Source of the DNA: Spirochaetota bacterium
GTDB taxonomy: Bacteria > Spirochaetota > Brachyspiria > Brachyspirales > JACRPF01
NCBI GenBank assembly: GCA_038043445.1
Contig: JBBTBY010000013.1
Span: 1-48,443, forward strand
Direction of reading: 5' to 3'
Length of the DNA: 48,443 bases
A program made the translations under genes and the position numbers. Shown here piece by piece: positions 7,017 to 46,632 of this stretch (positions are counted from its first letter, which is position 1; the number at the start of each line of letters is the position of its first letter). The notes beneath the pieces are model-generated. The model searched no databases. It was not told the origin of the DNA and saw only the letters and a list, made by a program, of their open reading frames with translations.

Positions 7017-7574
7017 ATGAAAGCGATCATCCCACTTTCGTTCATGCTTCTTGCAGCTGCGCTCTCCGCGAGAACGTATATCGCGGACCCGGCGCATTCA
7101 AGCATCGGCTTCTCCGTGAAACATCTTGGGATAAGCACGGTGCGGGGACTGTTCAAGACGTTCACGACGACGTTCTCCGCCGATGAGGAGAAGGGCGTCA
7201 TCAGTGCGCTGTCAGCCGACATAGACACGGCAAGCGTGGATACGCGTGTGGATATGCGCGATAACCATCTTCGCAGCGCCGATTTCTTCGATGTGAAGCA
7301 GTTTCCCGCGGCGAAATTCGTCATGAAGTCGTATACGGGGACGAAGGCGGGCGGGAAGATCCTCGGCGATCTTACGCTGCACGGAGTTACAAAACCCGTA
7401 ACGCTCGACCTCGTTATCACGGGGAGCATGACGGACAAGAACGGCAAGACGCGCATCGCCGGTACCGCAACGGGTGTCATCAATCGCACCGATTTCGGCG
7501 TGGGAAAAAAGGGCGAAATGCCGGTCAGCGAGAGCGTTACGCTTACCATCGACATCGAGGCCATAGCGCAGTAA
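7017..7574 (+). CDS. YceI family periplasmic lipid-binding protein
   Basis: The start at 7017 follows GAGAAGGAG and opens a clear Sec signal peptide (MKAIIPLSFMLLAAALSA). The mature protein has the hallmarks of the YceI lipocalin-like barrel: an opening ADPAHSSIGFSVKHLGIS, DTRVDMRDNHLRSADFFDV, LTLHGVTKPVTLD and a closing INRTDFGVG. Family members bind polyprenoid or fatty-acid-like ligands in the periplasm. The ligand here cannot be read from sequence. Length is 185 aa, typical. It appears monocistronic, with a repeat element upstream and a small frame plus a separate promoter downstream. Confidence 0.93.
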   Translation: MKAIIPLSFMLLAAALSARTYIADPAHSSIGFSVKHLGISTVRGLFKTFTTTFSADEEKGVISALSADIDTASVDTRVDMRDNHLRSADFFDVKQFPAAKFVMKSYTGTKAGGKILGDLTLHGVTKPVTLDLVITGSMTDKNGKTRIAGTATGVINRTDFGVGKKGEMPVSESVTLTIDIEAIAQ

Positions 7575-7581
7575 GGCGCGC

Positions 7582-7761
7582 GTGATACGATTTTCGGGCG
7601 AAGGGAATATATCCGCACGCGGTGCCGCGGCGAAACACGGCATCGGTGCGGATGCAGCCGAAAAGATCGGGAAGCGCCTGGCCGCGAAGAGCTGTATCGT
7701 GGCGGCCGATGCGGTGAACGATATCGCCGCCGCAAGGGAAAAGGACGGTCTTTTGTCTTGA
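7582..7761 (+). CDS. Possible small protein, 59 aa
   Basis: A GTG-initiated frame fills the space between the YceI gene and the ABC transporter gene. The product is Ala-rich, with a helical middle (GADAAEKIGKRLAAKSC) and many GCG/GCC codons like the neighbouring genes. There is no good ribosome site. It could be the remnant of a larger enzyme or chance coding. The 3' end overlaps the -35 region of the next promoter. I do not recognise a family. Confidence 0.3.
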   Translation: MIRFSGEGNISARGAAAKHGIGADAAEKIGKRLAAKSCIVAADAVNDIAAAREKDGLLS

Positions 7762-7785
7762 TTTTTAGCGCGGACGCGGTATACT
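7758..7785 (+). promoter_or_regulatory. Sigma70-type promoter for the ABC exporter operon
   Basis: TTGATT at 7758-7763, a 16-base spacer, and TATACT at 7780-7785. The ABC ATPase ATG is only eight bases beyond the -10 box and has no Shine-Dalgarno sequence, so the transcript should be leaderless or nearly so. Confidence 0.65.
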
Positions 7786-7793
7786 GCGGCGCC

Positions 7794-8756
7794 ATGATAG
7801 AAGTACGCTCCATCGTCAAGGATTACGGCGAACACCGCGCGCTCTCCGATGTTTCATTCACGGTAGCCCGCGGGGACATCGTCGGGCTTCTCGGCCCCAA
7901 CGGCGCGGGGAAAACGACGACCATGCGCATCATCACCGGCTTCCTTCCGGCGACATCCGGTGAAGTGTTCGTGGCCGGCGCCGAAGTGCATGACGATCCC
8001 CTCTCGGTGAAAAAGCGCATCGGCTATATGCCTGAGAACGTGGCGCTCTACAACGAAATGCGCGTGGCCGATTATCTTTCCTTCTGCGCGGAACTGAAAG
8101 GCGTCGCATCGAACGCTATCGCTTCGAAGGTCGATACGGCCATGGAGCTCGTGAAATTGACCGATAAGCGGCGCGTCGTGATAGGCCGTCTTTCGAAGGG
8201 GTACCGCCAGCGCGTGGGGCTCGCCCAGGCGATACTGCATGAACCCGATGTGCTCATACTCGATGAGCCGACGGTGGGCCTTGATCCCAATCAGATCGTG
8301 GAGATACGTTCGCTCATTTCATCGCTCGCCGGAAGCCGCACGGTCATCATATCAAGTCATATACTCCCCGAGATAGAAGCGACATGCAAGCGCGCGATAA
8401 TCATCAACGGCGGTAAGGTCATCGCCACCGACACCATCGAAGGGCTTAAGCGCCGCGTGGAGACGGAGATAAAGGGCGGTAATGTGCTCGTGCGCGTCCG
8501 CGAAAAAATGAATGAAGCGGTGGCGGACCTTCGACGCATGATCGGCGTATCGAGCGTGAAGACCGCCGAGGACGGCTTTATCCGCATACAGAGCGAAACG
8601 GGCACCGATATACGGTCCGACGTCGCGCGCATGCTCGTCACGAAAGGGTACGATGTCGTCGAATTGACGGCGAACGCCATCGATCTCGAAGAGATATTCA
8701 TTCACCTGACGCACAAGGGCAATGCACACGGGGCACATGCCGGGGCACATGCATGA
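7794..8756 (+). CDS. ABC transporter ATP-binding protein (GldA-like, ABC-2 type)
   Basis: Cytoplasmic ATPase of an ABC-2 exporter. The start was set at 7794, just after a strong -10 box. An upstream in-frame ATG at 7758 lies within the promoter. Walker A GPNGAGKT is at residues 34-41, followed by the signature region LSKGYRQRVGLAQA, Walker B VLILDEPTVGLDP and the switch region ISSHILPEIE. A C-terminal extension of about 100 residues resembles that of GldA-type ATPases and ends in a His/Ala-rich tail (GNAHGAHAGAHA). Length is 320 aa. The stop overlaps the permease start by four bases (ATGA). Substrate is unknown. Confidence 0.93.
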   Translation: MIEVRSIVKDYGEHRALSDVSFTVARGDIVGLLGPNGAGKTTTMRIITGFLPATSGEVFVAGAEVHDDPLSVKKRIGYMPENVALYNEMRVADYLSFCAELKGVASNAIASKVDTAMELVKLTDKRRVVIGRLSKGYRQRVGLAQAILHEPDVLILDEPTVGLDPNQIVEIRSLISSLAGSRTVIISSHILPEIEATCKRAIIINGGKVIATDTIEGLKRRVETEIKGGNVLVRVREKMNEAVADLRRMIGVSSVKTAEDGFIRIQSETGTDIRSDVARMLVTKGYDVVELTANAIDLEEIFIHLTHKGNAHGAHAGAHA

Positions 8757-9466
8757 AGGCGCGCAACGTACGCACGATATTCCTCCGCGAGCTCCGCTCG
8801 TTCTACATATCGCCGCTCTATTACATACTCGGCTTCATCTATCTCGCGCTCACGGGCTTTTTCTTCACCATGGACATTCACTTCGTCAAGCTCGCGGTGA
8901 TGGAGAACTCGCTCTACAATATCGGTTTCTTCTCGATACTCTTCCTTTCCATTCTCTGCATCAAGCTCGTTTCCGAGGAGAAATCGTCGGGAACGTTCGA
9001 GCTCGTGATGACCTCTCCCATACAGTCGTTCGAATATGTGCTCGGCAAATATCTTTCGGTGCTCACCGTCTACGCATCGTTCCTTATCATAACGCTCGCC
9101 TACCCGGTATTCCTCATGATATTCGGCACGCCCGATGTCGGCGTCATACTCTCAGGCTATCTCGGGCTATTCCTTCTCGGCGCGGCCGTGCTCGGGCTCG
9201 GCCTTGTGGCCACATCGCTCACGCGTTCGCAGCTTGTCGCCGCCATTCTCGGCGTCTCGCTCGCACTCCTCGCGTATGTGATCAACTGGATAGCGGATAT
9301 GTTCTACTCCGCCAAGCGCGTGCTCGAGGCCATATCGATAACCACGCAGTTCGCCAATTTCACCAAGGGCCTCATCGACGTGTCGAACATCCTCTTCTTC
9401 ATTACATGGATAACCGTCTGTCTCGCCGTCTCCACGCTCATCGTTGAATCGTACAAATGGCGATAG
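8753..9466 (+). CDS. ABC-2 type permease (GldF-like)
   Basis: Six hydrophobic segments in 237 aa form the membrane half of the exporter whose ATPase is encoded just upstream with a four-base overlap. The opening (IFLRELRSFYISPLYYI) and the cytoplasmic loop EEKSSGTFELVMTSPI are typical of GldF/YhaP-like permeases. In many bacteria a GldG-like partner follows. Here the next gene is uppP, six bases away, so the usual third component is missing from this operon. Confidence 0.9.
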   Translation: MKARNVRTIFLRELRSFYISPLYYILGFIYLALTGFFFTMDIHFVKLAVMENSLYNIGFFSILFLSILCIKLVSEEKSSGTFELVMTSPIQSFEYVLGKYLSVLTVYASFLIITLAYPVFLMIFGTPDVGVILSGYLGLFLLGAAVLGLGLVATSLTRSQLVAAILGVSLALLAYVINWIADMFYSAKRVLEAISITTQFANFTKGLIDVSNILFFITWITVCLAVSTLIVESYKWR

Positions 9467-9472
9467 CGCGCG

Positions 9473-10318
9473 ATGCTTGAAGCCTTCATACTCGGCGCCG
9501 TACAGGGTGTAACGGAATTCCTTCCCGTGTCAAGCTCGACGCATCTGCGATTTCTGCATCACTTCTTCGGCTTCGATCTTTCCATGAACACCGTCGCCTT
9601 CGATATCACGCTCCATTGCGCGACATTGCTTGCCGTTGTCATCGTGTTCCGAGAGGAGATACGCACGGTGATCACAGGCTTCATGAAAGCACTCACCCCG
9701 TCATCGATAAAGGACATACGGCGCACCTGGCGTAAGAACGAGCAATTGCGCTTCGTCATCTACGTTCTCACTGCAACGGCGTTGACCTTCCTCGTTTATT
9801 TTGCGATGAAAATGCTCGGCGTTCCGCTCAAAGACACCGTATCATCAGATGCAGAGGCGGAACGCGGCATGCTCATGACGTTCTCGGCGGGGCTCATCGT
9901 CACCGGTTTCATACTCTTCGCATCGCTTCTGGCGAAACGCTATGGACAGCATCGCAAGCCGACCGTCATCATTGCCATTATCGTCGGCATCGCGCAGGGG
10001 CTCGCCCTCTTTCCCGGCATTTCACGCTCAGGGATTACGATAACCGCAGCGCTTCTCTCGGGGATATCGCCGGCAGCCGCAGGAAGCCTTTCTTTCCTGC
10101 TCTCTTTACCCGCGGTCGCCGGAGCGGCGCTCCTTGACGTGAAGAACATCGCCGCTATGGAACTCATCCCGCTTGCCGTCGGATTTATAAGCGCGTTCGT
10201 ATTCGGTTATTGTGCGCTGAGGCTCCTCATCGCCATGATACGCCGCGGGAGTTTTTTCGTGTTCGGTTTCTACTGCATTGCGGCAGGCGTTTCGATGATC
10301 GTCTATCTGATGCGGTAG
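9473..10318 (+). CDS. uppP: Undecaprenyl-diphosphatase UppP (BacA)
   Basis: Membrane phosphatase that recycles undecaprenyl pyrophosphate to the monophosphate carrier used for peptidoglycan and surface polysaccharides; it also gives bacitracin tolerance. Both catalytic-region signatures are present: GVTEFLPVSSSTHL near residue 12 and PGISRSGITI near residue 180. About eight hydrophobic segments and 281 aa are normal. It is six bases downstream of the ABC permease, so co-transcription with the exporter is likely and hints at an envelope substrate for it (inference). Confidence 0.95.
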   Translation: MLEAFILGAVQGVTEFLPVSSSTHLRFLHHFFGFDLSMNTVAFDITLHCATLLAVVIVFREEIRTVITGFMKALTPSSIKDIRRTWRKNEQLRFVIYVLTATALTFLVYFAMKMLGVPLKDTVSSDAEAERGMLMTFSAGLIVTGFILFASLLAKRYGQHRKPTVIIAIIVGIAQGLALFPGISRSGITITAALLSGISPAAAGSLSFLLSLPAVAGAALLDVKNIAAMELIPLAVGFISAFVFGYCALRLLIAMIRRGSFFVFGFYCIAAGVSMIVYLMR

Positions 10319-10408
10319 CGTAACTGATTTATCACATGGGCGCTGTCAATAGGTGTGAGAATGTGTATTGCAGGTAAGGAAAATAAGCCACGGATATGGT
10401 GGCGACCG

Positions 10409-10536
10409 CGTAGGCGTCTGTCGCGAAAATAGAGAACAGCGGGTTGCAACCCGCTGTTCTCATCGATCCTGATAAATTCTTGATGCTCATTATTCTTCGT
10501 TATGGGCGAGTAGCATTTTCGCGACAGCCTCCGTAG
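10409..10536. mobile_element. Small inverted-repeat (MITE-like) element containing a palindrome
   Basis: Lies in the 335-base gap 10319-10653, which otherwise holds only a terminator. Arms of 13 identical bases (CTGTCGCGAAAAT) are at 10418-10430 and, inverted, at 10515-10527. The arms can be extended to about 17 bases with three mismatches. CGTAG flanks both sides (10409-10413 and 10532-10536), like a 5-bp target duplication. Inside, 10433-10460 is a perfect 13-bp stem with a two-base loop around CGGGTTGCAACCCG. A variant of this inner palindrome recurs at 43302-43327. Confidence 0.55.
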
Positions 10537-10593
10537 TTGCTTTGCGATTATTATAAAGAGCGATCTGCACCGCATTGCTGCACACAACAAATG

Positions 10594-10632
10594 AAAAAGG
10601 CCGTCCGCTGTTACTGTGCGGACGGCCTTTTT
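10594..10632. terminator. Bidirectional intrinsic terminator
   Basis: A ten-base-pair stem (GGCCGTCCGC at 10599-10608 with GCGGACGGCC at 10618-10627) with a nine-base loop, flanked by A5 on the left and T5 on the right. It can end the minus-strand barrel gene (stop at 10654) and plus-strand transcripts from uppP. Confidence 0.88.
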
Positions 10633-10653
10633 GTGATAAGGTTACAGTAGATA

Positions 10654-12240
10654 CTAGAAGCGCATGCTTGCTTGTATCGACCAGTTGCCGAGAGACCAGA
10701 TATCCGTTGCAACAACGGTACCTGTGTTGACGTACTGCATGTCGATCGTAAAGTCTTTCGAAACGGTGAACGTAAGACCGACTGAATACGCTACACCAGT
10801 AGTCCAGCTTGCGAGTCCCGCCACATTGGTAGATGCCGTTTCGTTGCCGGCACCGAAGTTCGTGGTCGTTGTCGTCACGCCGTTGGTGATCAACGTCGAA
10901 GTGATCTTATTCGGCACTGAGGTGCTTGTCGTCGAGGAATACGAATACGCGAATCTCGGCTGTATGCCGGCGCGTATCGCCAACCACTCCGTGCAATCGA
11001 TCTGAACAGCGGCCGGAACGAATATGCTTCCCGCAATGGTCTGTACATTCATGCTGGTCGTGTTCGCCGTCGGTGTCTGCAGCTGATAGCTGTATCCATT
11101 CGACCCCATAAGAGTGAAATTCGTCGTCGATTGTACGTACGATTCCGGCGTGTATGTCGCCTCAAGTCCGAGGCCGGCTCCAAGTTTTATCTTGTTGTCG
11201 GCGATGCGCGTGTTCATATAGAGGCAGTTACTCGTCGAAAGCGGCAGCGCCATATACCCGTCCTGATACGTCACATTGGACACTGTCACGTTGCTCGTGT
11301 ACCCCACCGCAGGGACATAATCTCTCCTCCCCGAGTTGATGGCGGTAGCGCCGTTGAAGCGCATTCCGAGAGCAGCGTTCAGTGATGCATACAGTTTCAG
11401 TCCGATGTCCTTTGCGAGCGTCATTCGTGTTGCGGCACCGAGCCCGAAATAATTAACGCTCGTATTGTTCACCCAGTTCTGGTTGCTGGCGACCGGCGTA
11501 GTGATCGTATTCGTCGGGAACACGTTGGTCTCGCCGTATGAGCCGATGGTCGCGTTCTCAACAAGCCGATACGATATCGGTATGTAGATCTGCATATCGC
11601 CCATTTTCACGGCCGGGGTCAGTATATGCGTGATCGTATTCGTGCTCTGCCGGTTACCGGGATTATATCCCAACGTGAGCGTATTCCAGATGGTCCCGTT
11701 ATTGGTCGCAAGCGCGTTGGACACCAAGTTCCCCTGCTGCGCGCCGAGATTATCAAGCGTTCCAGAACGATTGTTCATGTTCATGATAAGCTCATACGAT
11801 ATACCGAGCTTCATCGCATCGCTGTTGATAAGGCTGGCAACGAGTTTGATGTTGCGCTGCGAGTTATCAAGCGTGAGATTTCCGGCGATCGTGCTGTTCG
11901 CAAAATTCGTTCCGTTTTGCCGAATATTGGTGCTTAACGAAAAATTGGACATCGGCGAAATGTTTTCCGTATCGTTCACGGCCAAGGTGATTCGAACAGG
12001 AAGACCGGTCATAAGACCTATCATGCCGTCCCAGTTCACCGTGTTCATGGTCGCATTGAACCCTCTCCAGCCAAGGTCAGTGATGTTCTTTTCAACCTTG
12101 AAAATGTAGAGCGGATCAGCCGCCATATATACGTCGTTCTCGAACAGGCCGTAGCTGTAGCCCCATTGCAGCGAAGTGATCGCGAATGACGAGCTTGCGA
12201 TAACGCATACCGCCATCAGTGATGTGAGAATCTTTTTCAT
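10654..12240 (-). CDS. Outer-membrane beta-barrel-like protein of unknown function
   Basis: A 528-aa exported protein. It starts with a textbook signal peptide (MKKILTSLMAVCVIASSSFA), preceded by AGGAG. The mature chain is rich in Asn, Thr and Ser, has many short alternating beta-like strands and no long hydrophobic helix, and ends in a strand closing with Phe (WSIQASMRF), as expected for BAM-assembled barrels. Codon use is more AT-rich than the neighbours. It has its own promoter with a leader of about 140 bases and a strong terminator, so it is monocistronic. Porin or adhesin roles are possible; no specific family was recognised. Confidence 0.8.
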   Translation of the reverse strand: MKKILTSLMAVCVIASSSFAITSLQWGYSYGLFENDVYMAADPLYIFKVEKNITDLGWRGFNATMNTVNWDGMIGLMTGLPVRITLAVNDTENISPMSNFSLSTNIRQNGTNFANSTIAGNLTLDNSQRNIKLVASLINSDAMKLGISYELIMNMNNRSGTLDNLGAQQGNLVSNALATNNGTIWNTLTLGYNPGNRQSTNTITHILTPAVKMGDMQIYIPISYRLVENATIGSYGETNVFPTNTITTPVASNQNWVNNTSVNYFGLGAATRMTLAKDIGLKLYASLNAALGMRFNGATAINSGRRDYVPAVGYTSNVTVSNVTYQDGYMALPLSTSNCLYMNTRIADNKIKLGAGLGLEATYTPESYVQSTTNFTLMGSNGYSYQLQTPTANTTSMNVQTIAGSIFVPAAVQIDCTEWLAIRAGIQPRFAYSYSSTTSTSVPNKITSTLITNGVTTTTTNFGAGNETASTNVAGLASWTTGVAYSVGLTFTVSKDFTIDMQYVNTGTVVATDIWSLGNWSIQASMRF

Positions 12241-12385
12241 TTCTTCTAACTCCTCTTAATAATACGAGATCGTAAAGTGATTCGTTCAATTGCGCTATTG
12301 TTCCCGCTTTATTATTTTGCGAAAACGCCAGCGACTCCTCCATTTCGGTCAAGCTCATGGTTTAGCAGTTATTTCCGTGTGAAGG

Positions 12386-12413
12386 ATTATACATTTTCAG
12401 GATATTTATGCAA
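12386..12413 (-). promoter_or_regulatory. Promoter of the barrel gene
   Basis: On the minus strand TTGCAT, a 16-base spacer and TATAAT. The implied start gives an untranslated leader of about 140 bases before the ATG at 12240. No known riboswitch was recognised in it. Confidence 0.65.
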
Positions 12414-12491
12414 TACCCCCCTCGGCGTGGTGTTTGACTTTCTATTATGGTAACGCAGCGAAATAATTGCATGAGGCCGGAATCAGCAGCC

Positions 12492-12550
12492 AGACACGAA
12501 TTACACTAATTTCCACGAATTATTCGTGGTTATTCGTGCAATTCGTGTCT
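12492..12550. repeat. 59-bp imperfect palindrome
   Basis: Two 29-base arms around one central T pair with four mismatches. The right arm holds three variants of an ATTCGTG unit. It sits in the 438-base gap 12241-12678 between the divergent barrel gene and aspS, which otherwise holds only the two promoters. It resembles in style the arms at 6741-6884 and 27104-27170. Confidence 0.75.
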
Positions 12551-12617
12551 ATCCCTCTTAATTTGGCGTCAATCGATCAGAGCATTTCACCTACAAAATA
12601 AATTCATTCACCCGGCG

Positions 12618-12646
12618 TTGCGGCACATCGGTATTTACTATATAAT
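12618..12646 (+). promoter_or_regulatory. Promoter of aspS
   Basis: TTGCGG, a 17-base spacer and a perfect TATAAT at 12641-12646, 32 bases before the chosen aspS start. Confidence 0.65.
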
Positions 12647-12678
12647 GGCGCCGCATTCAATATGATATGAGGATGAAT

Positions 12679-14454
12679 ATGCACACCTATCGAACGCATA
12701 CCTGCGGAGCGCTTTCCAAGGCGGATGTCGGGAAAACCGTCCGCGTGAGCGGCTGGATACACAATAAACGCGACCATGGCGGTGTTCTTTTCATAGACCT
12801 GCGCGACCATTACGGGCTCACGCAGGTGGTGGTACGCCCCTCGGCGCCGTTCCAGGATGCCGTCTCGCATCTTCCCAAGGAGACGGTGGTGCGCTTCGAC
12901 GGCGTTGTGATAGAACGCACCCCGGAGAACGTCAACCCGAAGCTCGCCACCGGTGCGATAGAAGTGGAAGCAAGCGCATACGAAGTGCTCGGAATCGCAG
13001 AGATAGTGCCCTTCAGCGTATTCCCGGACGATCTGACATCCGAAGAGCTGCGTCTGAAGTACCGCTACCTCGATCTGCGTAAGGACCACCTGCATGCGAA
13101 CATCATCCTCCGCGCGAAGGTGATTTCAGCGATACGCCAGAAGATGACATCGCTCGGTTTCAACGAATTCCAGACGCCGATACTCACCGCATCGAGCCCG
13201 GAAGGCGCGCGCGATTATCTCGTACCCTCGCGCGTGCACGCGGGGAAATTCTACGCACTCCCGCAGGCCCCGCAGCAGTTCAAGCAGCTCCTCATGATGT
13301 CGGGGTTTGACCGCTACTTCCAGGTCGCGCCCTGTTTCCGCGACGAGGACTCACGCGCCGACCGCTCGCCCGGTGAATTCTATCAGCTCGATATCGAGAT
13401 GTCGTTCGTCACGCAGGACGATATCTTTACGACGCTTGAGGATGTGATGTACACCATATTCACGCAGTTCTCCTCGTGGCAGATGACGAAGCCCCCGTTC
13501 CCCCGCATCCCGTACCGTGAGTCCATGGTGAAATACGGCACCGACAAGCCGGACCTCCGCATACCGATAGAGAACCGCGATGTGAGCGACATCTTCAAGC
13601 GCTCGGATTTCAAGATATTCAAGGACATTATCGCGAAGGGCGGCGTCGTCCGCGCGATACCGGTGAAGGGCATCGTCGATGAGCCGCGGAGCTTTTTTGA
13701 CAAGCTCGTCGAGTTCGCGCAGTCCCTCGGCTCGAAAGGCCTTGCGTATCTCCAGTTCGAAAAGGACGGCTCGATAAAGGGGCCGCTCATGAAATTCCTC
13801 ACACCGGAGCGCATCAAGGAGATAACCGACAGCTGCGGCATCGGCAGCGGCGACGTTGTGTTCTTCATCTGCGAAAAACAGAAAGCGGCGGACAGTCTCG
13901 CCGGTCAGATACGCACGAAGATAGGCACTGATCTCAAACTCATCGAAGAGAACGTGTTCAAATTCTGCTGGATAACCGATTTTCCCATGTTCGAGTACAG
14001 CGACGAGGAAAAAAAGGTCATCTTCTCGCACAACCCGTTCTCCATGCCGCAGGGCGGGATGGAAGCGCTCGAGAAGAAGGACCCGCTCGATATACTCGCC
14101 TATCAGTACGACATCGTCTGCAACGGCATCGAACTCTCAAGCGGCGCGATACGCAATCACCGTCCGGACGTCATGTACAAGGCGTTTCAGATCGCCGGAT
14201 ATGATTCGAGCGTCGTCGATACGAAATTCCCCGCGCTCATCAATGCGTTCAAGTTCGGCGCACCGCCGCACGGGGGCATCGCACCGGGCATAGACCGTAT
14301 GGTCATGCTCCTTGCGAACGAAACGAACATACGCGAGGTCATAGCCTTCCCGATGAACCAGAAGGCGCAGGACCTGCTCATGGGTGCACCGGCAGGCGTT
14401 ACGCCGCGCCAGCTGAAGGAACTCCACATACGGCTCGCCGAAGAGGAAGATTGA
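12679..14454 (+). CDS. aspS: Aspartyl-tRNA synthetase
   Basis: Class II synthetase charging tRNA-Asp. The N-terminal anticodon-binding OB domain opens with [20 protein letters not shown]. Class II motif 2 is near [19 protein letters not shown]. The GAD insertion domain of bacterial AspRS lies about residues 290-420, and motif 3 is [11 protein letters not shown]. Length of 591 aa fits the bacterial type. Three in-frame ATGs (12667, 12673, 12679) are available. I chose the last because GAGG lies six bases upstream of it. Whether it is discriminating or also charges tRNA-Asn cannot be decided here, as no gatCAB is in view. Confidence 0.97.
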
Positions 14455-14465
14455 TCTCGGATCTC

Positions 14466-16076
14466 TTATCGTGCCCGCTCAAGATTGACGAGGAGTTTCC
14501 CGGAAAGCGAGAGCGTATCGCTCTCCGCGCGCAGGCTGAGATACACGATGCGCGGGAAGCTTTCGCGGCGGAGCATGCCGAACGTCGAAAAATATTCGTA
14601 CGACAGCGGGAAATTGAAATAGAACATGCCGTGCGACGGGGCAAGCCCCATGGCGTTCATGTGCGGACTTTTTGACGCAAGATTGTCGTTACGCGATGCG
14701 CTTACGATGACGTCCTTGAGCGCGTCCAGGTCGTACGAGAAGAAGAAACGGTCCCTGATCGGGCAGAAGAATATCTTCTGGTCGCCGAGATCGTAATAAT
14801 AGATGAAGCGGTCCTTGAACCGTATCTCCCGTTTTCGGAGCGCGCTGGTGCGTTTCGCAAGCGAGGCTTCAAGTGCGGGCAAAGCGGTCGCTTCATCCTT
14901 AAGCACGCACATGACGACGACATGATAGGTGTCGGTACCGCGGAGCACGCCGATAGCGGCCTCGCCCCCGACGGCAGGCAGCAGGTCGGCTATGCCGGTA
15001 CGCGCGTTCATGCTGTTCAATGAAGCGGCAAGGGCCGCTGCAAAGCGGACATTGGTCATGGTGGTCGCATACGCGTACGCCGACGCATACCAGCGGCCCA
15101 TATCGCGCGCAGAAAGTGAAAGCAGGAGCACCGTTGAGCGCGGGAAATACAGATGCGCCGTTTTTTTCCGCGCCGGCCCGAAGACCTCGGACAGTTCATA
15201 CGAGGCATTCCCGTGATGATTGATGGAAAGCGTCACATCCGTTTCACGCGCGTGCGGACGGGCAGAGGCGAAGACCTCATCACCGCGTATGAGCTTGCCG
15301 GCGATGAATGCCAACGGCTCCACGGAGGACAATGCCGACGTACGGAAACGTGCCGTGTGAAAATAGGCCTGTACCGGAGCGGCACCGGGATCGGCCGCAT
15401 CGCGGAGGAATCGCTCTTCGGACAATGCCGGCCCCTTCGAACGGTAAAAATCGATGAGGAACACAAGATTGCTGTAGCCGCCCGTACCGATGATACGCCC
15501 GCGCAACCATGCATTGTAGAACACGGGGGCATCGCCCTCGCGCCATTCCTCCACGGTCACCCCGCGATAGGACGAACGCCGTTTCTCGAGATGTCTCCCC
15601 GCAAGCCTGATCGTCGATACCGGCGTGCCGATGATCGAGAGTACGGCGCAGGGAAGATTCCCGATATCGGCGACGACATACGCCCTGCTTTCGGCGATAT
15701 TCGTGGCATCACCGCTGAGAAGGATGAACGCGGCGTCCCGCGAAAGGGCTGAGCGAATGATGGAGCGCGGAAAGAACGGCAGGGAGTTGCACGCCGTGAC
15801 GGCCGACCGCAGCGCCTGAAGCGAGGTACGCACTGCCTCTTCCTCTCGCAGATCGCTCGCATATTCGGATTCGAGGAAGCGCTCGGTCAGGCGCAAGGGC
15901 CCCTTGCAGGCGAGATAGAGTAACGTCGAGCGCGGCAATTCACGTACGTACACCGATCTTTTCGTAAGCCCTTTCGCACCGAACGACAGCCATGCAATAA
16001 GTGCAACGATAGCCGCGATTATGGCTATCGTCACGCCTATTTTTGTCAATTGCCGTCGCCGGCGAATGCTCATCAT
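14466..16076 (-). CDS. Membrane-anchored exported protein of unknown function
   Basis: A 536-aa protein with a basic N-terminus and one strong transmembrane segment at about residues 13-32 (GVTIAIIAAIVALIAWLSFG). The rest is predicted outside the cytoplasm. The opening LPRSTLLYLACKGPLRLTERFLES and the many aromatic/hydrophobic strand segments are reminiscent of DUF3352-type proteins, but I cannot confirm the family. No catalytic motif is visible. It is convergent with aspS (11-base gap, no terminator) and is followed upstream on the same strand by rlmE after about 70 bases. Confidence 0.75.
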   Translation of the reverse strand: MMSIRRRRQLTKIGVTIAIIAAIVALIAWLSFGAKGLTKRSVYVRELPRSTLLYLACKGPLRLTERFLESEYASDLREEEAVRTSLQALRSAVTACNSLPFFPRSIIRSALSRDAAFILLSGDATNIAESRAYVVADIGNLPCAVLSIIGTPVSTIRLAGRHLEKRRSSYRGVTVEEWREGDAPVFYNAWLRGRIIGTGGYSNLVFLIDFYRSKGPALSEERFLRDAADPGAAPVQAYFHTARFRTSALSSVEPLAFIAGKLIRGDEVFASARPHARETDVTLSINHHGNASYELSEVFGPARKKTAHLYFPRSTVLLLSLSARDMGRWYASAYAYATTMTNVRFAAALAASLNSMNARTGIADLLPAVGGEAAIGVLRGTDTYHVVVMCVLKDEATALPALEASLAKRTSALRKREIRFKDRFIYYYDLGDQKIFFCPIRDRFFFSYDLDALKDVIVSASRNDNLASKSPHMNAMGLAPSHGMFYFNFPLSYEYFSTFGMLRRESFPRIVYLSLRAESDTLSLSGKLLVNLERAR

Positions 16077-16145
16077 ACCGATATCCTCGTCCGGAGGGAC
16101 CGGACCGCCTTATAAGTATCGTCAATTAAGGAAGGATTTTTTAAT

Positions 16146-16724
16146 TCAGGTATGGAATGCCCGGCAGCAGAGAAAGAGCTCACGGCTTTCCTCACGCGAG
16201 CTTTTCGGCTTGAAATTCGCTACAGTTGCGAACATCGCCTTCAGTTCGGTGCGGTATGCGGTAAGGTCGGGACCATCGAACACCTTGATGAAAAAGTGGC
16301 CGCCTCGCGAAAGGAGCGCGGGCAGCGCGCGTGTTATCACCCGGCAGAGATTGATAGAGCGATAATGGTTCGCCTCGGGGTCGGCGATGGTGTTCGCCAT
16401 GGCATCGCTTATCACCGCGGAAAACAGCCCCCCGCGGACGAGCGATGCGGCGTCGATCGTTTTGATATCGCCCTGGATGAACGTGAAATGCGGATGACTG
16501 AACTGTACGGGGAGTATATCGATGCCGGTGACCGAACCGGTGGTGATGACCGATCGCGTCAGGAACTGGCTCCACGACCCCGGTGCGCAGCCGACATCAA
16601 GAACACGGTCGGCAGGGCGTATGAATGAGAACTTCTCAAGCGCTTCCGAAAGCTTGTACACCGAGCGGGCAAGATACTGTTCCTCTTTCGCCTTCCGGAA
16701 ATACCGGTCGCGAACCTCTTTCAA
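16146..16724 (-). CDS. rlmE: 23S rRNA 2'-O-ribose methyltransferase RlmE (FtsJ)
   Basis: SAM-dependent methyltransferase that modifies the 23S A-loop uridine (U2552 in E. coli). SAM motif DVGCAPGSWSQ is near residue 43. The K-D-K-E catalytic tetrad can be placed: Lys in ARSVYKL, Asp in VISDAMAN, Lys in GGHFFIKVFDG and Glu in SREESRELF. VISDAMAN differs from the common LSDMAPN but keeps the Asp. The 192-aa length is slightly short, consistent with a trimmed N-terminus. Its ATG overlaps the stop of the upstream TPR gene by four bases. Confidence 0.93.
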   Translation of the reverse strand: MKEVRDRYFRKAKEEQYLARSVYKLSEALEKFSFIRPADRVLDVGCAPGSWSQFLTRSVITTGSVTGIDILPVQFSHPHFTFIQGDIKTIDAASLVRGGLFSAVISDAMANTIADPEANHYRSINLCRVITRALPALLSRGGHFFIKVFDGPDLTAYRTELKAMFATVANFKPKSSREESRELFLCCRAFHT

Positions 16725-27457: not shown

Positions 27458-30400
27458 ATGAATCGCAACAAAATTTTCGCGTCGATCACCACATTGCTGC
27501 TTTTCGCCACCACTGCTGTCGCAACCGACATAGTGTCGAATGGTGGTTTCGAAAAGGCGACGTGGGAAACGACAGATTGGTTCTCAAATGTGGGAGCGAC
27601 GATTTCGGGTTCTCGCATGGGCCGGTCGAGCTTGTTTTCAAAGAACGGCGGTTTTTCATATTGGATATCAAATGCCGTACAACCGGCAGGGACGATGCAT
27701 TTTCAGTCCAGAACTAACGCTGCCTCCGCAGCAACAGGATACAGTTTTTCAGCGTGGATATTGCGTAAGAACTACGGCGGAGGGGGTCAATTGCAGGGAA
27801 ATTTGCGGGTCAATTGGCTCACGGCTGCTGATGGGGCCAATGGAAGCGCCACATTGTCGCTTACCGGTCTGGCAGATGGTGTGTGGTCGAATGCCAGTAA
27901 TGTGATCACAAGTCCGGCAGGCACGGCGAAGTTTTATATCACCGCTGAACCGCGACAAGTCCCCGCCAACGGAGGAAAGGTAATATTTTTTGACGACATA
28001 ACCTTGATCAACGGCATACCGCCGGTTGTAACATTGCTCAGTCCGCTCAATAATACCACGGGCGTTCTGGTGACGGCGAATATCGTTCTGACTTTCAATG
28101 TGGCTGTCGCGAAGGGCTCGGGCTATATTTATATTCGAAAATATATGGATGACAGTATTGTGCAGACAATTGATATAAACGATGCAACTCCGGGCGTTAT
28201 TACCATGGGCGCGACGAGCGTTACCATCAATCTTCCCGCCGATCTTGCATCAGCAACACAATACTATGTTACGGTTGACAGCGGGGCTATAAAAGACACA
28301 CAGGCCGTGCCGATCGATTTTCCCGGTATATCATCAAAAACAACGTGGAGATTTGTAACTACGGATGCTGTCCCTCCAACAGTGACCGCGCTCAGTCCTA
28401 CGAACGGTTCATTAAATATCATGCCGAGCAGGAGCCTTGTCCTCACCTTCGATGAAAGTGTAGCGAAGGGGGCGGGGAGCATCCTTATCAGGAATTATGT
28501 CGACGATACGACGATTCTCACGATACCCGTGACTTCCCCGGAGGTCACCGTATCGAACAATATCGTTACCATAAATCCGACGAATGATATTCTTGAAACA
28601 AATGTATATGTGAACATCCCTGCCGGCACTATACGAGACCTTTCAGCGAACAACCATGCTGGTTTCCTGGTGAAAACGGATTGGAACTTTCAGGTCTTCG
28701 ACGGTGTTGCACCGACAGTAACAGCGATAACTCCGCTCAACGGGGCGCTCGGCGTTGCCACCGCCAGCACATTGCAATTGGTTTTTACTGAGAATGTACA
28801 AAAAGGTACGGGGAATATTTACATAAAGAATTCTTTAGATGACAGCATCACCCATACCATCGATGTGACAAGCGGCAGCGTTGTAATCGCCAACACGGTT
28901 GTGACGATAACGCCGCCGGGCGGACTGCTCGTGGATAAGCAATACTATGTTACGATAGACGCTACCGCGATAAAGGACTTTGCCGCTGTCGCCAATTTTT
29001 ATTCAGGTATAAGCGGTAAGAACAGCTGGATGTTCCTGACGACCGGCGCGACCGCCCCTGGGATACTGTTACTCAGCCCTGCGGATGAGGCGGCCGGTGT
29101 ATCGTCCGAGGCGAACCTTGTGATCGCATTCGATAAGAACATATGCCTGTATCCCGGTGATGACGCAAGCGGAACCTATCGGTATTTTTCGATCTATCAG
29201 ACGGCAGGCCCGACGCTGCTTCAGCAGATCAAGTCCAGTGATGTTGTTATTTCAAATAATGCCATTTATATCAACCCTCCCAGCAACCTTCCCGAGGGAG
29301 CGATATATGTGAACATTGATTCCGGAGCGATAAGCAATCTCAGTCAAATGGCGTACGGGGGTATATTGAATAATACGACGTGGAATTTTACCGTCGCAGA
29401 TACAACACCACCGACCATTTTCATACTGAATCCGCCGAATAATTCGGCAGGTTTCAACCTGACTGCAGATATTGAAATAACATTTGATGAGGCTATACAA
29501 AAGGGAACGGGGAATATATACATCAAGAAATATTCCGATGACAGCATGGCACAGACAATCGATGTTGCCACTGCAGCGGTGACGATAGCAGGGAATAAGG
29601 CAACCATCAATCCACCGAGCGATCTTATCGCCGGTGTGCGCTACTATGTGACCATGGACGCAGGCGCTATAAAAGATACCGCGACAACGCAGAATAATTA
29701 CGGCGGGATAAGCGCAAAAACCGTGTGGTCATTCGTCGCTGCGGACACGACCGCGCCGACGGCGACCGCATTCTACCCATTGGACGGTGCGAGTGCCGTC
29801 GTGCCGAGCACGCCGCTCGCTATTTCCTTCAGTGAGGATATTCAAAAAGGATCGGGCTTTATCCAGATAAAACGCTCGAACGACAATGTGCTTCTCTTGG
29901 CGATCGATGTGCAGAGCACGAACGTGCTCGTAGCATCGAATGTCGTGCTCATCACGCATCCATTGTCCATCCCCGATACGAACGTGTATGTGAATATTGC
30001 CTCCGGCGTGATACAGGACCTTTCGGCGAATGAATATGCAGGGGTTACCGGTACTACGGATTGGGATTTCAGCATTCTTGATAATTTTGCTCCGGTGGTA
30101 ACTGCGTATACGCCGACGAACACACAGATCGGCGTTTCTGTCGGTGAATTTCTCCGGCTTACATTCGATGAAATAGTGCAAAAAGGGGCCGGCAATATCT
30201 ATATCAAGAATTTCGCGACCGATGCGGTGACACATACCATCGATGTGACGACGGCGAATGTCGCCATCGCCCTTAACAGGGTGACGATAACGCCGCCTGG
30301 CGGACTTGCGACGAACATGAAGTATTATGTGACCATCGATGCCGGCGCGATAAAGGATATGGCGAACGCGGTCAATAATTACGGGGGTATAAGCTCGAAG

Positions 30401-31027
30401 AGCGTGTGGTCGTTCGAAACACCCGATACATTGCCTCCGACCGTGCAGAGTCTTTCACCGACCAACGGCGATCGCTACGCGGGCATGTCGTCGAATCTCA
30501 TCATGACGTTCGTTGAGCCGATACTCTGGGCCGGCGGGAGTGATACGATCACGATAAAGCGTTTCATTGATAATACAACACTTTACACGTTCACGAACAA
30601 TGATCCGTCGGTTGTTATCAGCGGGAACGTCATCAGCATTGATCCGTCCGCCGAGCTGCCGAGGGAGAATCTATATGTCCTTATCGGGCCGACACTTCTC
30701 GTGGACAGAAGCGGCAACCTGTATGACGGCATAGCTGCAAATAACACATGGCAATTCACCGTGGGGGAGGCGATCTCCACCAACCGCGGAGTGCCATATA
30801 ACACCATAACTCGAAGGACGGATGCATCGGTGCGCTTCAATAATCTTGTTGCCGGCGACGAGATATGGATATACTCGGCGAGCGGATACAAACTCGCCAC
30901 TGTGCCGTATGTGGCCGCAACGACGTACTGGACGATACCGGCGAATTTAAGCTCGGGCGTCTATATCGTGAAGATACGCAACAGCGGTGCCTTTGTCGGT
31001 TCGTATAAAATAGTGATACTGCGGTAA
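27458..31027 (+). CDS. Large surface protein: carbohydrate-binding-like domain, eight Ig-like (Big_5/SbsA-type) domains, sorting-like C-terminus
   Basis: An 1189-aa exported protein. Signal peptide residues 1-22. Residues about 24-185 look like a galactose-binding/CBM-type beta-sandwich (SNGGFEKATWETTDW, FFDDITLINGI). Eight Ig-like domains start near residues 188, 305, 420, 532, 651, 765, 877 and 993, each opening like PPTVTALSPTNG. They alternate between type A (YYVTIDAGAIKD) and type B (VYVNI), giving four A-B pairs. Residues about 1107-1189 resemble a type IX/FlgD-like C-terminal domain (EIWIYSASGYKLATV, SSGVYIVKIRNSG, YKIVILR). The gene is more AT-rich than its surroundings. Its neighbour, 21 bases on, is PorV-like. 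Confidence 0.85.
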   Translation: MNRNKIFASITTLLLFATTAVATDIVSNGGFEKATWETTDWFSNVGATISGSRMGRSSLFSKNGGFSYWISNAVQPAGTMHFQSRTNAASAATGYSFSAWILRKNYGGGGQLQGNLRVNWLTAADGANGSATLSLTGLADGVWSNASNVITSPAGTAKFYITAEPRQVPANGGKVIFFDDITLINGIPPVVTLLSPLNNTTGVLVTANIVLTFNVAVAKGSGYIYIRKYMDDSIVQTIDINDATPGVITMGATSVTINLPADLASATQYYVTVDSGAIKDTQAVPIDFPGISSKTTWRFVTTDAVPPTVTALSPTNGSLNIMPSRSLVLTFDESVAKGAGSILIRNYVDDTTILTIPVTSPEVTVSNNIVTINPTNDILETNVYVNIPAGTIRDLSANNHAGFLVKTDWNFQVFDGVAPTVTAITPLNGALGVATASTLQLVFTENVQKGTGNIYIKNSLDDSITHTIDVTSGSVVIANTVVTITPPGGLLVDKQYYVTIDATAIKDFAAVANFYSGISGKNSWMFLTTGATAPGILLLSPADEAAGVSSEANLVIAFDKNICLYPGDDASGTYRYFSIYQTAGPTLLQQIKSSDVVISNNAIYINPPSNLPEGAIYVNIDSGAISNLSQMAYGGILNNTTWNFTVADTTPPTIFILNPPNNSAGFNLTADIEITFDEAIQKGTGNIYIKKYSDDSMAQTIDVATAAVTIAGNKATINPPSDLIAGVRYYVTMDAGAIKDTATTQNNYGGISAKTVWSFVAADTTAPTATAFYPLDGASAVVPSTPLAISFSEDIQKGSGFIQIKRSNDNVLLLAIDVQSTNVLVASNVVLITHPLSIPDTNVYVNIASGVIQDLSANEYAGVTGTTDWDFSILDNFAPVVTAYTPTNTQIGVSVGEFLRLTFDEIVQKGAGNIYIKNFATDAVTHTIDVTTANVAIALNRVTITPPGGLATNMKYYVTIDAGAIKDMANAVNNYGGISSKSVWSFETPDTLPPTVQSLSPTNGDRYAGMSSNLIMTFVEPILWAGGSDTITIKRFIDNTTLYTFTNNDPSVVISGNVISIDPSAELPRENLYVLIGPTLLVDRSGNLYDGIAANNTWQFTVGEAISTNRGVPYNTITRRTDASVRFNNLVAGDEIWIYSASGYKLATVPYVAATTYWTIPANLSSGVYIVKIRNSGAFVGSYKIVILR

Positions 31028-40622: not shown

Positions 40623-43280
40623 TCACTCTACGATCGTAACGCCCGCGATCACATATCCCATGTTCTTCGCCGCAGTGAGCGTTATCGACTTCACCATGCC
40701 GCCGACGGCCATGTCGTACTGCCAGAGCCCATGCTTCCCGCCGGAGGAATACACCGGCTGTGCGACGGAATAGATCTCCTCGCGAGCATTGCGCGTGAGC
40801 AGTTTTCCGTTCTCGACATCGCCGGGCATGAGAAGCTTCATGACGATATTGCCGATCTCGCGGCGTATGACAATGGGCTGTTTGACCGACGTATCCCCCT
40901 CAATGCTGATGGCGCCGATCTCCTTCATCGCAACGTCCGTCTGAAGACTGGTATAGAGGAACGATATCGCCTTTGCACGCCTGCCGACCGGTATCGTGAG
41001 CGATTTCTCCTCGGTAACGGTAATGCCCGCCGCGGATCCGCTTCCCGCGAAGAAGAAAGGCATGCCGTATTCGGTCGTGAACGTTCCGGCGCTGAAACCG
41101 CCCGGCTCAGCGAATGAAGAATCAGCCGCCGCGGAGAGGTCTACGGGTGCTGCCGTCTCACCGCCGCGCGGGAAATAGCGTACCGGATACATCCCGGCGA
41201 CGACATTGTTGAAACCGCGCACGGCGAACGACGGCGTATAGAAATCGACGGCCGGTGTATACGCATTCCAGAACGATACGCCCGCCTGTACATACGGCCA
41301 CATCTTTTTTGCGTATTGGAACATCGACTTCGCATTGCCGCTGTATCCTGTCCACGTGGTATGGAGCATGCCGTAGATGTTCTTCTTTTTCCCGTAGCGT
41401 GAAAAATTGATGATGTTGTTCACATCCTCTTCGCCGGTGGCGCCGATAACACGGAAGCCCAGGGCCTGGAACTGATCGACCTCGGGGAATTCCGCCGCGG
41501 GGCGGTAATCCCAGACGGCTATCATCGCGCTTTTATCCATCTTTTTCGCTACGTTGAGGAGTTCCTCGCGATGCGCCGGATGCGAACGCCCGTTGAGATA
41601 ATCCTGCCAGACCATGAGCGACAGGTTTTCCTTCTTCGCGTACACTTCATAGAACTGCATGTCTTTCCAGAGAAGATCGGCAAGCGACAGCTTCATGTTC
41701 TCCGGACGGTTCGGATACTTTCCGCGCATAGTGACCTCATCATGACCGATGTGGATATATGACGGCGAGGGAAATATCGTACGCATGTCCGCGAAGAGTT
41801 CGTTCATTATCTCGTATGTCCTCGGGTTGGAAACGTTATACGCATACGGCATTCCAGGGTCTTCGGCGATATCGATGTTCGCCTTGTTCTTAAAGAGATA
41901 TTCGCTGTGTCCATAGGTCTGAAAGAGCGGATCGACATCGATGAAATGCTCTTCGGCGATGCGTATGAGCTCCTTCATATCGTCCATCGACATGCCCCAT
42001 GCCTGATGGAGCTCCGGATGGCTCGGCCATTTCGCGTATTCGCATTCGAAGAGTATGCGGTTTATCCTGAGCGGGCCGAACACGTTCCTGATGAAAAGCG
42101 AATGGAGCTTGAGCGAGTTGTCGTCGGCAAGGAGATGTATGCTGCGATAGGGGAAATCCGCCCAGTCCTTCACGGTGCCGATGCGAATGGCGCCGCTCTC
42201 ATCACAGAGCTGTACTACGGTGGAAAGAGCATAGTAAATGCTCGCCGGCGTGTTCGCGCTGATGACGACGCCTGACTTGCTAACCGATATCTCGTGATAA
42301 TCGAATGATGAAGCGTTCGGCGCGGCCGCTTTCTTCACGGTGATGAATCCGGCGGCTTCCGGCTTTGCCGTACGGGCGATACCGGCGGCGGTAAAGAGCT
42401 CCGTGAGAAGCGATGCGTAGCGCGCCGTGTTCTTTGAGTTCTCGATGGCGATGCCGAGCGATGCGGGGAGCATCACCGTTCCGCCGGATATCGATGCGCT
42501 CTTCGGCTTCGGGAATATCTCGCTGCTGAGCGATCGTTTCTGCACTGACATCGGTGCGCGAAGCGAGATCGATCCGCCCTGCGGCGTCACCGCCGGGAGC
42601 GCGATGAAGCTCTTGAAATCGCCGGATGCGGTAAGCGTCATCTCATGATAGAAACGCTCGCCCTTCGCGATGGACGGCGCCGTCGATACCGGAAAAATGA
42701 ATATTTCGCGGCCCTTGTACGGTTTTGCACGGCGGTCGACCATCGTGAAACCGGGGCCTTTCACCGCTTCGATGACTATCGTGCCGATCTTGCTTTTCAT
42801 GGTAAGCCGTTTCGATTCCGCTGATATTTCGGAAAGTGATGATGTCACGTTCATCACCATGCCGCCTTCGTTCTCAACGCGTGCATCCTCCATGAATATC
42901 GCCGGTATTGCGAGCGGAATGTATTCGAGCATGGCATCGCGTTCCACCTTGAGCGTGCCGTCGATGACGATGCGTATCGACTGGGGTGAAACCGATTCGA
43001 ACCGGAATTCGTCCATGTAGAAATCGGTGGGGCTGTCAGGGTCGGAGGTGATAAGGAGCGACGATGCCGTGCGTGTTGTCTTAACGGGGAATTTCGCGAG
43101 CCAGAAATACTGCGTCTTCCAGCTTTTCTCCACGCAGACGAACGAAGTTCCCATGCTGAACTTGTTCTCCTTGAAAGTGACCGTCGGGCCGTCGTTGCGG
43201 TTGGCCATTTCGAATTTCCAGTCGCCCTGGGCGAAGATCGATGCAGTGAGAATGATGATGAGCGCGATCACGTGTTTCAT
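40623..43280 (-). CDS. Secreted glycoside hydrolase family 20-like beta-hexosaminidase with unknown N-terminal module
   Basis: An 885-aa protein. The start at 43280 follows GGAGGC and opens a signal peptide (MKHVIALIIILTASIFAQG); the long frame upstream is not supported. Residues about 20-250 are a module shared with the neighbouring deacetylase. A GH20 domain-2-like region (about 270-375) includes ISANTPASIYYALSTVVQL. The catalytic barrel (about 377-680) has the paired acid residues Asp514-Glu515 in YIHIGHDEV. A C-terminal beta-rich domain follows. GH20 enzymes release terminal GlcNAc or GalNAc by substrate-assisted catalysis. Exact substrate unknown. Confidence 0.85.
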   Translation of the reverse strand: MKHVIALIIILTASIFAQGDWKFEMANRNDGPTVTFKENKFSMGTSFVCVEKSWKTQYFWLAKFPVKTTRTASSLLITSDPDSPTDFYMDEFRFESVSPQSIRIVIDGTLKVERDAMLEYIPLAIPAIFMEDARVENEGGMVMNVTSSLSEISAESKRLTMKSKIGTIVIEAVKGPGFTMVDRRAKPYKGREIFIFPVSTAPSIAKGERFYHEMTLTASGDFKSFIALPAVTPQGGSISLRAPMSVQKRSLSSEIFPKPKSASISGGTVMLPASLGIAIENSKNTARYASLLTELFTAAGIARTAKPEAAGFITVKKAAAPNASSFDYHEISVSKSGVVISANTPASIYYALSTVVQLCDESGAIRIGTVKDWADFPYRSIHLLADDNSLKLHSLFIRNVFGPLRINRILFECEYAKWPSHPELHQAWGMSMDDMKELIRIAEEHFIDVDPLFQTYGHSEYLFKNKANIDIAEDPGMPYAYNVSNPRTYEIMNELFADMRTIFPSPSYIHIGHDEVTMRGKYPNRPENMKLSLADLLWKDMQFYEVYAKKENLSLMVWQDYLNGRSHPAHREELLNVAKKMDKSAMIAVWDYRPAAEFPEVDQFQALGFRVIGATGEEDVNNIINFSRYGKKKNIYGMLHTTWTGYSGNAKSMFQYAKKMWPYVQAGVSFWNAYTPAVDFYTPSFAVRGFNNVVAGMYPVRYFPRGGETAAPVDLSAAADSSFAEPGGFSAGTFTTEYGMPFFFAGSGSAAGITVTEEKSLTIPVGRRAKAISFLYTSLQTDVAMKEIGAISIEGDTSVKQPIVIRREIGNIVMKLLMPGDVENGKLLTRNAREEIYSVAQPVYSSGGKHGLWQYDMAVGGMVKSITLTAAKNMGYVIAGVTIVE

Positions 43281-43301
43281 GGTTGCCTCCGTACAGCAGT
43301 G

Positions 43302-43327
43302 GAACAGCGGGTTGCAAATCGCTGTTC
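43302..43327. repeat. Palindromic repeat, second copy
   Basis: Stem GAACAGCG...CGCTGTTC around GGTTGCAAAT. It is a slightly decayed copy of the perfect palindrome at 10433-10460, here placed between the hexosaminidase and deacetylase genes, without the outer inverted arms. Confidence 0.75.
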
Positions 43328-43350
43328 TCGTGGATGATATATATTGCTTC

Positions 43351-44883
43351 TCATTGCGGTTTTCCCCAATGCTCAGGATGCGTAAGAATAATGACCCGTG
43401 TGCCCCGTGTGAGCGACGCGAGGTATGCGGCAAGATCGGCGACACTTTTGTCCTTGAAACGCCCGTCGATATCGCCGGTCGACACATCGCGCTTGATAAG
43501 GTATGCCTCATACGAAAGTCCGTAGTCGGCGGTGGAATGCATGCCGTACGGATAGGAGACGCCGTTCGTCACGATATGTCCCTTCTTCCCGAACTCGGAG
43601 AACATCCACATATTGTTGAGTCCCATACCGATGACGGTGCCGTCGCCGTGCGCCGCCGCTCCCGTAACGGTGATGCCGAGCGTGCGGTATCGCTCTATCT
43701 CTTCTTTCATGAACGCAACGGGGTCGAACTGATATTTCCACATCATGCTGAAAAGATCGGTATGTATGCCTATCTCAAATCCCTTATCCGAGAGCTTTTT
43801 CGCGAGCGCGCGTATCGCCGCGTTCGGGGCGATGATGCCGTTCTTCACATCGCCGTAATATGTTGCCGAGTGAAGGATGTAGTATGTCGACCGTATGCCC
43901 GCTTCATGCTCGAGCTTCGCCATCGCAAGCGCTTTTTCGGGATGGCTGTCGATATCGTGGCGCATGCCGATGACGACTGTATCCTTTGTTGTATCCGTAA
44001 CGAGATCGCGCACGGTGAGCACGCGGTACTGCGGTTTCGTTATCTCGGCAAGGAGCGTACGGTAATCGTCCCAGCTGAATTTCCCGCCGTACGCCGATTC
44101 CGCCCGTACGATATCCTCAAGCGGGCGTTCATCAGCGGTACCGAAAAAGACTTTCGTCCTGAGCACGGCCGGCGGTATCTCCGAAGCTGCCGCAGCGGCC
44201 ATAGTGCTTTTCTGACGTACGGTGAACGATACTTCCTGCTCGTACACATCGTTCTGCGAGAGCGTTACCGCTTTCTGCTCCATGATGATGAAACCCTTCG
44301 CGCCGAGATAGGGCTTTTCGCGCCTGTCCTGCATGATGAGCTTACTGCCCTTCTTGACGGTGACGGTAATGTCACACTTCGGTGAGCGTATCTCGCAGAC
44401 GCTCCATGGAGGAGAATCGGGCATGGTTCCTGCATAATATGCCGCCAGATCGATGGTCTTTGCGTCGAATGCCATCTTCGCTCCGCTCATCACCGCTTCG
44501 GGTATGTTCGCAACGACATGCGTAACGAAGGCGCTTACGTTCTCCGTGAGAATGCCGCGCACCGCTATCGCGAACGTATCGGGAGATGCCGCCGTGATGC
44601 GATGGTATTCGACGGCGAATGGCGATGGCTTCGCCGGGTCGGTGGCGACGGTAAGCCCATGTTCCGAGCGAGTGACGAGCGGGGCATGTTTCGCACCGTA
44701 ATACCAGTGGCTTTTCCAAGGCGGTTCCATACAGAGAAGGAGTGAATTGGCGATAATGACAGTATTACTCTGGGCGACGGAGAATCCGGCATTGCCTGTC
44801 CAGTCCATGCGAAAACCGGATTCCTCGATGCCGGCGGCGCTTACGCAGATAGCAGCAAGGATGAAAAGTACATGCATTCTCAT
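43351..44883 (-). CDS. Secreted polysaccharide-deacetylase-like (NodB fold) protein with the same N-terminal module
   Basis: A 510-aa protein with signal peptide (VLFILAAICVSAAG). Residues about 18-235 resemble the N-terminal part of the adjacent hexosaminidase (LIMQDRREKPYLG beside FTMVDRRAKPYKG). The C-terminal part is NodB-like: metal Asp in RHDIDSHPE (His309, Asp310, Asp312), histidines in GIHTDLF, and HGDG and THPEHWG motifs. It may deacetylate an amino sugar polymer, though the His-x3-His spacing is not textbook, so activity is unproven. ATGs at 44883 and two codons later are possible; the first is six bases from a -10 box. Confidence 0.8.
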   Translation of the reverse strand: MRMHVLFILAAICVSAAGIEESGFRMDWTGNAGFSVAQSNTVIIANSLLLCMEPPWKSHWYYGAKHAPLVTRSEHGLTVATDPAKPSPFAVEYHRITAASPDTFAIAVRGILTENVSAFVTHVVANIPEAVMSGAKMAFDAKTIDLAAYYAGTMPDSPPWSVCEIRSPKCDITVTVKKGSKLIMQDRREKPYLGAKGFIIMEQKAVTLSQNDVYEQEVSFTVRQKSTMAAAAASEIPPAVLRTKVFFGTADERPLEDIVRAESAYGGKFSWDDYRTLLAEITKPQYRVLTVRDLVTDTTKDTVVIGMRHDIDSHPEKALAMAKLEHEAGIRSTYYILHSATYYGDVKNGIIAPNAAIRALAKKLSDKGFEIGIHTDLFSMMWKYQFDPVAFMKEEIERYRTLGITVTGAAAHGDGTVIGMGLNNMWMFSEFGKKGHIVTNGVSYPYGMHSTADYGLSYEAYLIKRDVSTGDIDGRFKDKSVADLAAYLASLTRGTRVIILTHPEHWGKPQ

Positions 44884-44966: not shown

Positions 44967-45004
44967 AAAAAACGGGATAACGAAAGCCATGCTTCGTTAT
45001 CCCG
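44967..45004 (-). terminator. Intrinsic terminator of the Spy-like gene
   Basis: On the minus strand a twelve-pair stem (CGGGATAACGAA / TTCGTTATCCCG) with an eight-base loop followed by T6, about 50 bases after the stop codon at 45058. Confidence 0.88.
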
Positions 45005-46603: not shown

Positions 46604-46632
46604 ATTATACGGACGGCATGAACGCTTGTCAA
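46604..46632 (-). promoter_or_regulatory. Consensus promoter of the AraC gene, leaderless layout
   Basis: Minus strand TTGACA, a 17-base spacer, TATAAT, then exactly six bases and ATG. Both boxes match the sigma70 consensus, which makes the leaderless reading strong here. Confidence 0.8.

Follow-up and report, generated by a model that had tools for sequence, protein, structure and literature searches.

Neighbouring GH20 and divergent NodB-like proteins of a Spirochaetota bacterium share an N-terminal module with a predicted super-sandwich fold

Introduction

In the Model A architecture of GH20 beta-N-acetylhexosaminidases a GH20b domain is followed by the GH20 domain, and the text of the corresponding review of GH20 enzymes nowhere mentions a sandwich domain (PMC4449183). 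In glycosidases of the families GH97, GH129, GH101 and GH63 (YgjK) a super-sandwich precedes a (beta/alpha) barrel; in BtGH97a it comprises the N-terminal residues 1-317 and supplies, with Glu194, a ligand for the calcium of the active site (PMC2670981). A deacetylase domain and a glycoside hydrolase domain are found together in PgaB, there in one chain (PMC5933820).

We analysed a stretch of 48,443 nt (the window) from a 5.1 Mb draft genome of a Spirochaetota bacterium, in which a NodB-like and a GH20 protein are encoded next to each other. As in PgaB, a deacetylase would work together with a glycoside hydrolase on a common amino-sugar glycan (here predicted), but as two chains with a common front domain and with a hydrolase of another family. 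Our literature search found nothing naming a super-sandwich module combined with GH20 and NodB-like enzymes.

Results and discussion

The gene pair

Both open reading frames lie on the minus strand, at the positions given by the first-pass annotation, with the NodB-like gene (43351..44883, 510 aa) first and the GH20 gene (40623..43280, 885 aa) second. By inspection, the starts of both proteins, MRMHVLFILAAICVSAAG for the NodB-like and MKHVIALIIILTASIFA for the GH20 protein, resemble signal peptides, indicating export. The GH20 start had been placed at 43511, which is only the mechanical start of the reading frame; the real start is the ATG at 43280, with GGAGG 5 nt before it on the minus strand, and hence the genes do not overlap but are separated by a gap of 70 bp between the NodB-like stop (43351) and this ATG. 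A pattern scan detected a terminator-like hairpin of 13 pairs followed by T6 (44973..45004, minus strand) between the pair and a Spy-like gene upstream. As this hairpin is strong, the pair looks like a transcription unit of its own (no promoter was identified for it), and the hairpin is the probable upstream limit of a two-gene operon.

A genome from another class of the phylum (G040; UWPOB_SPIRO2, JAFLEE010000018) has both genes in identical order, 35 bp apart and downstream of a LacI-type regulator gene, and their products are 48% (NodB-like) and 57% (GH20) identical to the window proteins. In a third genome (G001; NC_groundwater_1980, JACRPF010000009) the GH20 gene is present and the NodB-like gene absent, so that the pair is not obligatory. 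Near this GH20 gene lies, at 13544-16588 of the same locus (minus strand), a gene for a protein of 1014 residues with ankyrin-like repeats and, by inspection, a lipoprotein-like start.

The rest of the window contains mostly housekeeping genes and nothing pointing to a glycan. It also encodes a protein of 1189 residues with eight Big_5 (bacterial Ig-like) stretches (27458-31027, plus strand), and a perfect sigma-70 consensus promoter, TTGACA-17-TATAAT, is located at 46604-46632 on the minus strand, directly upstream of an AraC-type regulator gene (46597-45656).

The GH20 protein

Membership of the 885-aa protein in GH20 is clear from its Pfam matches, with 49.9 bits for PF02838 (cut-off 26.1) and 39.4 bits for PF00728 (cut-off 22.3). 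The GH20b domain is encoded at 42159..42521 (PF02838, E 6.8e-13) and the matched part of the catalytic barrel at 41433..42000 (PF00728, E 6.1e-10), both on the minus strand. The catalytic pair Asp514-Glu515 within the motif HIGHDEV (41736-41741, minus strand) is kept in all three orthologues, and the predicted hexosaminidase looks active. A C-terminal region (40626..41180, minus strand) has no family match and is conserved in the alignment of the orthologues. The protein thus shares GH20b, barrel and catalytic Asp-Glu with Model A, but carries ahead of GH20b an additional module (42585..43229, minus strand). GH20 relatives on Deinococcus and Thermomicrobium plasmids are without this module; the former adjoins nagZ and the latter anmK and murQ, so that this branch of GH20 may be connected with the recycling of amino sugars from the cell wall.

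The NodB-like protein

Catalytic parts as unrelated as GH20 and NodB had been proposed before, and this was borne out, with the qualification that the NodB-like domain (residues 253-510; 43354..44127, minus strand) is divergent. The window protein itself gave no Pfam match, while three of the seven members of its family reach PF01522 (best E 6.6e-4), and the family profile led to weak matches in the PDB to CE4 chitin and peptidoglycan deacetylases (best E 0.0013). Invariant in the family are H309, D310, D312, H374, H412, D471 and H502. The first motif with its two Asp, a variant of TFDD, is conserved as RHDxD in 7/7 members, and GxH, a further His, an Asp and a late HP..W are kept as well. The HxxxH metal site of CE4 motif 2 was not found, as the window protein retains H374 but has Phe at position +4; the invariant H412 may replace the second His. 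The Asp-Asp motif, GxH and the late HP motif resemble those of CE4/NodB deacetylases, to whose structures the profile matches are weak and from which the window protein differs by the missing HxxxH and Pfam match, its fusion to the N-terminal module and its export. For a domain so divergent and without the canonical HxxxH, the assignment as deacetylase is a prediction only.

The Asp-Asp motif, GxH and late HP are also common to the NodB-like proteins of the surface-polysaccharide type (WbmS-like); again, fusion to the module and export distinguish the window protein. Its nearest plasmid-borne relatives (haloarchaea, Spirosoma and Sphingomonas) belong to surface-polysaccharide clusters with DUF354, WecB and HisH/HisF2 with N-acetyl sugar amidotransferase as neighbours. 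Together with the absence of HxxxH, this would fit an enzyme that is not a deacetylase but modifies the cell's own exported glycan, which the GH20 enzyme would trim, so that the operon would serve synthesis instead of breakdown. As the identity to these relatives is no higher than 20-27%, as neither module nor signal peptide is present in them, and as glycan-synthesis genes are absent near the pair, we regard such a role as improbable.

Homology of the N-terminal modules

The module of the NodB-like protein (44194..44832, minus strand) and that of the GH20 protein, both of about 210 residues, align over nearly their full length with an identity of about 24%. That both proteins begin with a common module, as suggested by the first-pass annotation, was confirmed by tblastn (E 2e-14 and 8e-15), a Smith-Waterman score of 167 compared to a maximum of 65 in 2000 shuffles (mean 31, SD 5; z 27) and hhalign (E 1.8e-20 over 189 columns). 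The two motifs by which it had been recognized by eye are in register in the alignment. Chance similarity, for which nothing but the low identity of about 24% could be claimed, is ruled out for practical purposes by z values of 27-37 in 4/4 cross-comparisons, by the hhalign result and by a second genome that keeps the likeness. Among five module sequences from the three genomes (the window's, G001 and G040), which form the alignment used throughout, 24 columns are invariant, including C, E and WK early and DRRxKPYxG near the end.

In a tree, GH20-borne modules are set apart from NodB-borne ones, reflecting a grouping by enzyme and not by genome, with identities of 59-89% among the GH20-borne modules, 35% among the NodB-borne ones and 24-27% across types. 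Recent gene conversion within the operon is ruled out by this clustering, and the sharing must be old: either the module was on both enzymes before the lineages split, or the operon moved as a unit. The adjacency of the genes, the cross-identity of just 24-27% and a NodB-like gene lost or never present in G001 would also agree with a module that was left over when a domain was duplicated within the operon and that was retained for folding or stability without a common ligand, in which case the substrates need not match. Such an origin appears rather unlikely, since WK and DRRxKPYxG remained invariant while the remainder diverged to 24% and since the operon was retained across classes.

Predicted fold

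Neither Pfam nor NCBIfam has a family for the module, and a sequence-profile search of the PDB with it gave no match. An AlphaFold2 model of the GH20 module, built on the five-sequence alignment (pTM 0.76, pLDDT 74), led in Foldseek to aldose-1-epimerases, galactose mutarotases, GH129, YgjK and a GH2 enzyme as best PDB matches (E 1.2e-6, probability 1.00, TM-score 0.5-0.6 normalised to the query), predicting a galactose-mutarotase-like super-sandwich. The model of the full NodB-like protein, in which the five-sequence alignment supplied the rows for the module, is weak (pTM 0.52); its best matches are GH129, GH97 and GH101 (E 4e-9), in which a super-sandwich is followed by a barrel. The strand order agrees between the two modules, as expected for one fold and not for two different ones, although the models are not independent because they share alignment rows. 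According to these models, the module, previously called undescribed, is so at the level of the sequence family, but its predicted fold is a known one that is not recognisable by sequence.

The catalytic residues of the aldose 1-epimerase GalM are His and Glu. No His is invariant among the five module sequences, in difference to GalM, and activity of the module as mutarotase is not expected. What the module has in common with the super-sandwich domains of GH97, GH129, GH101, GH63 YgjK and GalM is its predicted fold, with Foldseek E values reaching 1e-6, and, for the four glycosidase types, also its place ahead of a (beta/alpha) barrel (PMC2670981). The known domains are larger, with about 300-340 residues compared to about 210 here, share no detectable sequence match with the module, and in the glycosidases have catalytic partners other than GH20 and NodB-like domains.

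Distribution and a second module family

A profile of the module detected it in 3/393 Spirochaetota genomes and 2/31 of the window's own class, always on GH20 or NodB-like enzymes. The window's genome has just these two copies, and thus the idea that further enzymes of this genome might be fused to the module was not supported. Four additional marginal matches from a single-sequence search of 345 phylum genomes (E 7e-4 to 8e-3) were lost with the profile. Outside the phylum the search used near patterns only: two module peptide patterns, which detect only near relatives, gave the same two Spirochaetes MAGs among 84,980 species genomes. No match was found in a contig scan of species genomes with the NodB-like protein as query, nor in viral contigs.

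A different N-terminal module of about 205 residues is present on contig C21 of the window's genome, on two GH20 proteins and on an SGNH hydrolase encoded between them (C21:22000-41000, 2690-13688 therein, minus strand; followed by GH5-like and DUF3604 genes). In a search of 345 genomes its profile found no others than the three that have the first module, with this second module on GH20 enzymes in all three and on the neighbouring SGNH hydrolase in two. In G040, GH20 and SGNH genes with this module are neighbours at 6277-11626 of C100:94000-112000 (plus strand), with a heparinase II/III-like gene at 3-2366 of the same stretch, and a further such GH20 gene, at 4767-9279 of C1:160000-173360, adjoins the gene of a sulfatase akin to N-sulphoglucosamine sulphohydrolase. 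The SGNH-borne modules cluster together across genomes in a tree. GH20 and SGNH enzymes with a common front module are an arrangement parallel to the GH20 and NodB-like pair. The two module families are colinear over 156-199 columns, with W and DR motifs at corresponding places, and descent from a common ancestor is likely on these alignments but, with P values of 0.01-0.02 and pairwise z values mostly below 3, falls short of being shown.

Possible role of the module

According to the first-pass annotation the module could direct both enzymes to a single amino-sugar polymer (chitin, peptidoglycan or a glycosaminoglycan, for example); it would then be a free targeting part, comparable to a carbohydrate-binding module (CBM) and without a catalytic share. 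A common ligand would indeed account more readily than packing on different barrels for WK and DRRxKPYxG being invariant on unrelated enzymes, and the second front module, common to GH20 and SGNH enzymes, also fits. The predicted fold, however, is that of integral glycosidase domains and unlike a typical CBM, and the module is confined to two enzyme types, with no further copy in the genome, whereas CBMs spread widely. Since super-sandwich domains of glycosidases are usually packed against the barrel and can contribute to the active site, free targeting is not the default expectation, and the integral super-sandwich of BtGH97a (PMC2670981) favours a module packed on the barrel as part of the pocket. 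A conservation of the GH20 module as strong as that of the enzyme (59% and 57%) fits an integral part. From the models and this analogy, a pocket-forming role would be at least as likely as targeting, which we consider a conceivable but less probable function.

We therefore favour, at about even chances for the explanation as a whole, an operon for two exported enzymes built on one plan, an N-terminal super-sandwich followed by a (beta/alpha) barrel of GH20 or divergent NodB-like type, that would act on one amino-sugar glycan. The NodB-like enzyme would remove N-acetyl groups and the GH20 enzyme release terminal HexNAc, with the module packed against each barrel as part of the substrate site, where the invariant WK and DRRxKPY may either contact a group that is present in both substrates or hold the fold. 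The homology of the modules, the operon order kept in another class and the divergence of the modules along with their enzymes support this explanation. Operon linkage, shared module and the chemistry of both families suggest work on the same material and make a common amino-sugar substrate plausible. Arguments against this explanation are that a common packing surface is not guaranteed for unrelated catalytic domains, that the conserved surface residues could equally reflect binding, and that the models rest on five sequences, with a weak one for the NodB-like protein. As for the glycan, nagZ, anmK and murQ beside the GH20 relatives from outside the phylum hint by analogy at wall-derived amino sugars, and the heparinase-like and sulfatase genes at the paralogous loci of G040 at sulfated glycans.

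More tentatively, and with rather more doubt than confidence, the two arrangements may belong to a rare, lineage-restricted super-sandwich family serving repeatedly as an aiming or pocket part. It would coordinate unrelated enzymes (GH20 with NodB-like, GH20 with SGNH) on a single amino-sugar glycan, and every operon would have a module version of its own.

A GH20 and a NodB-like enzyme are hereby added to the architectures with a predicted mutarotase-like super-sandwich, as a natural pair for asking whether such domains recognise the substrate or merely support the barrel. If our explanation is true, it is the front domain and not the catalytic family that tells which enzymes have a common substrate, and it could lead to partners that catalytic annotation misses.
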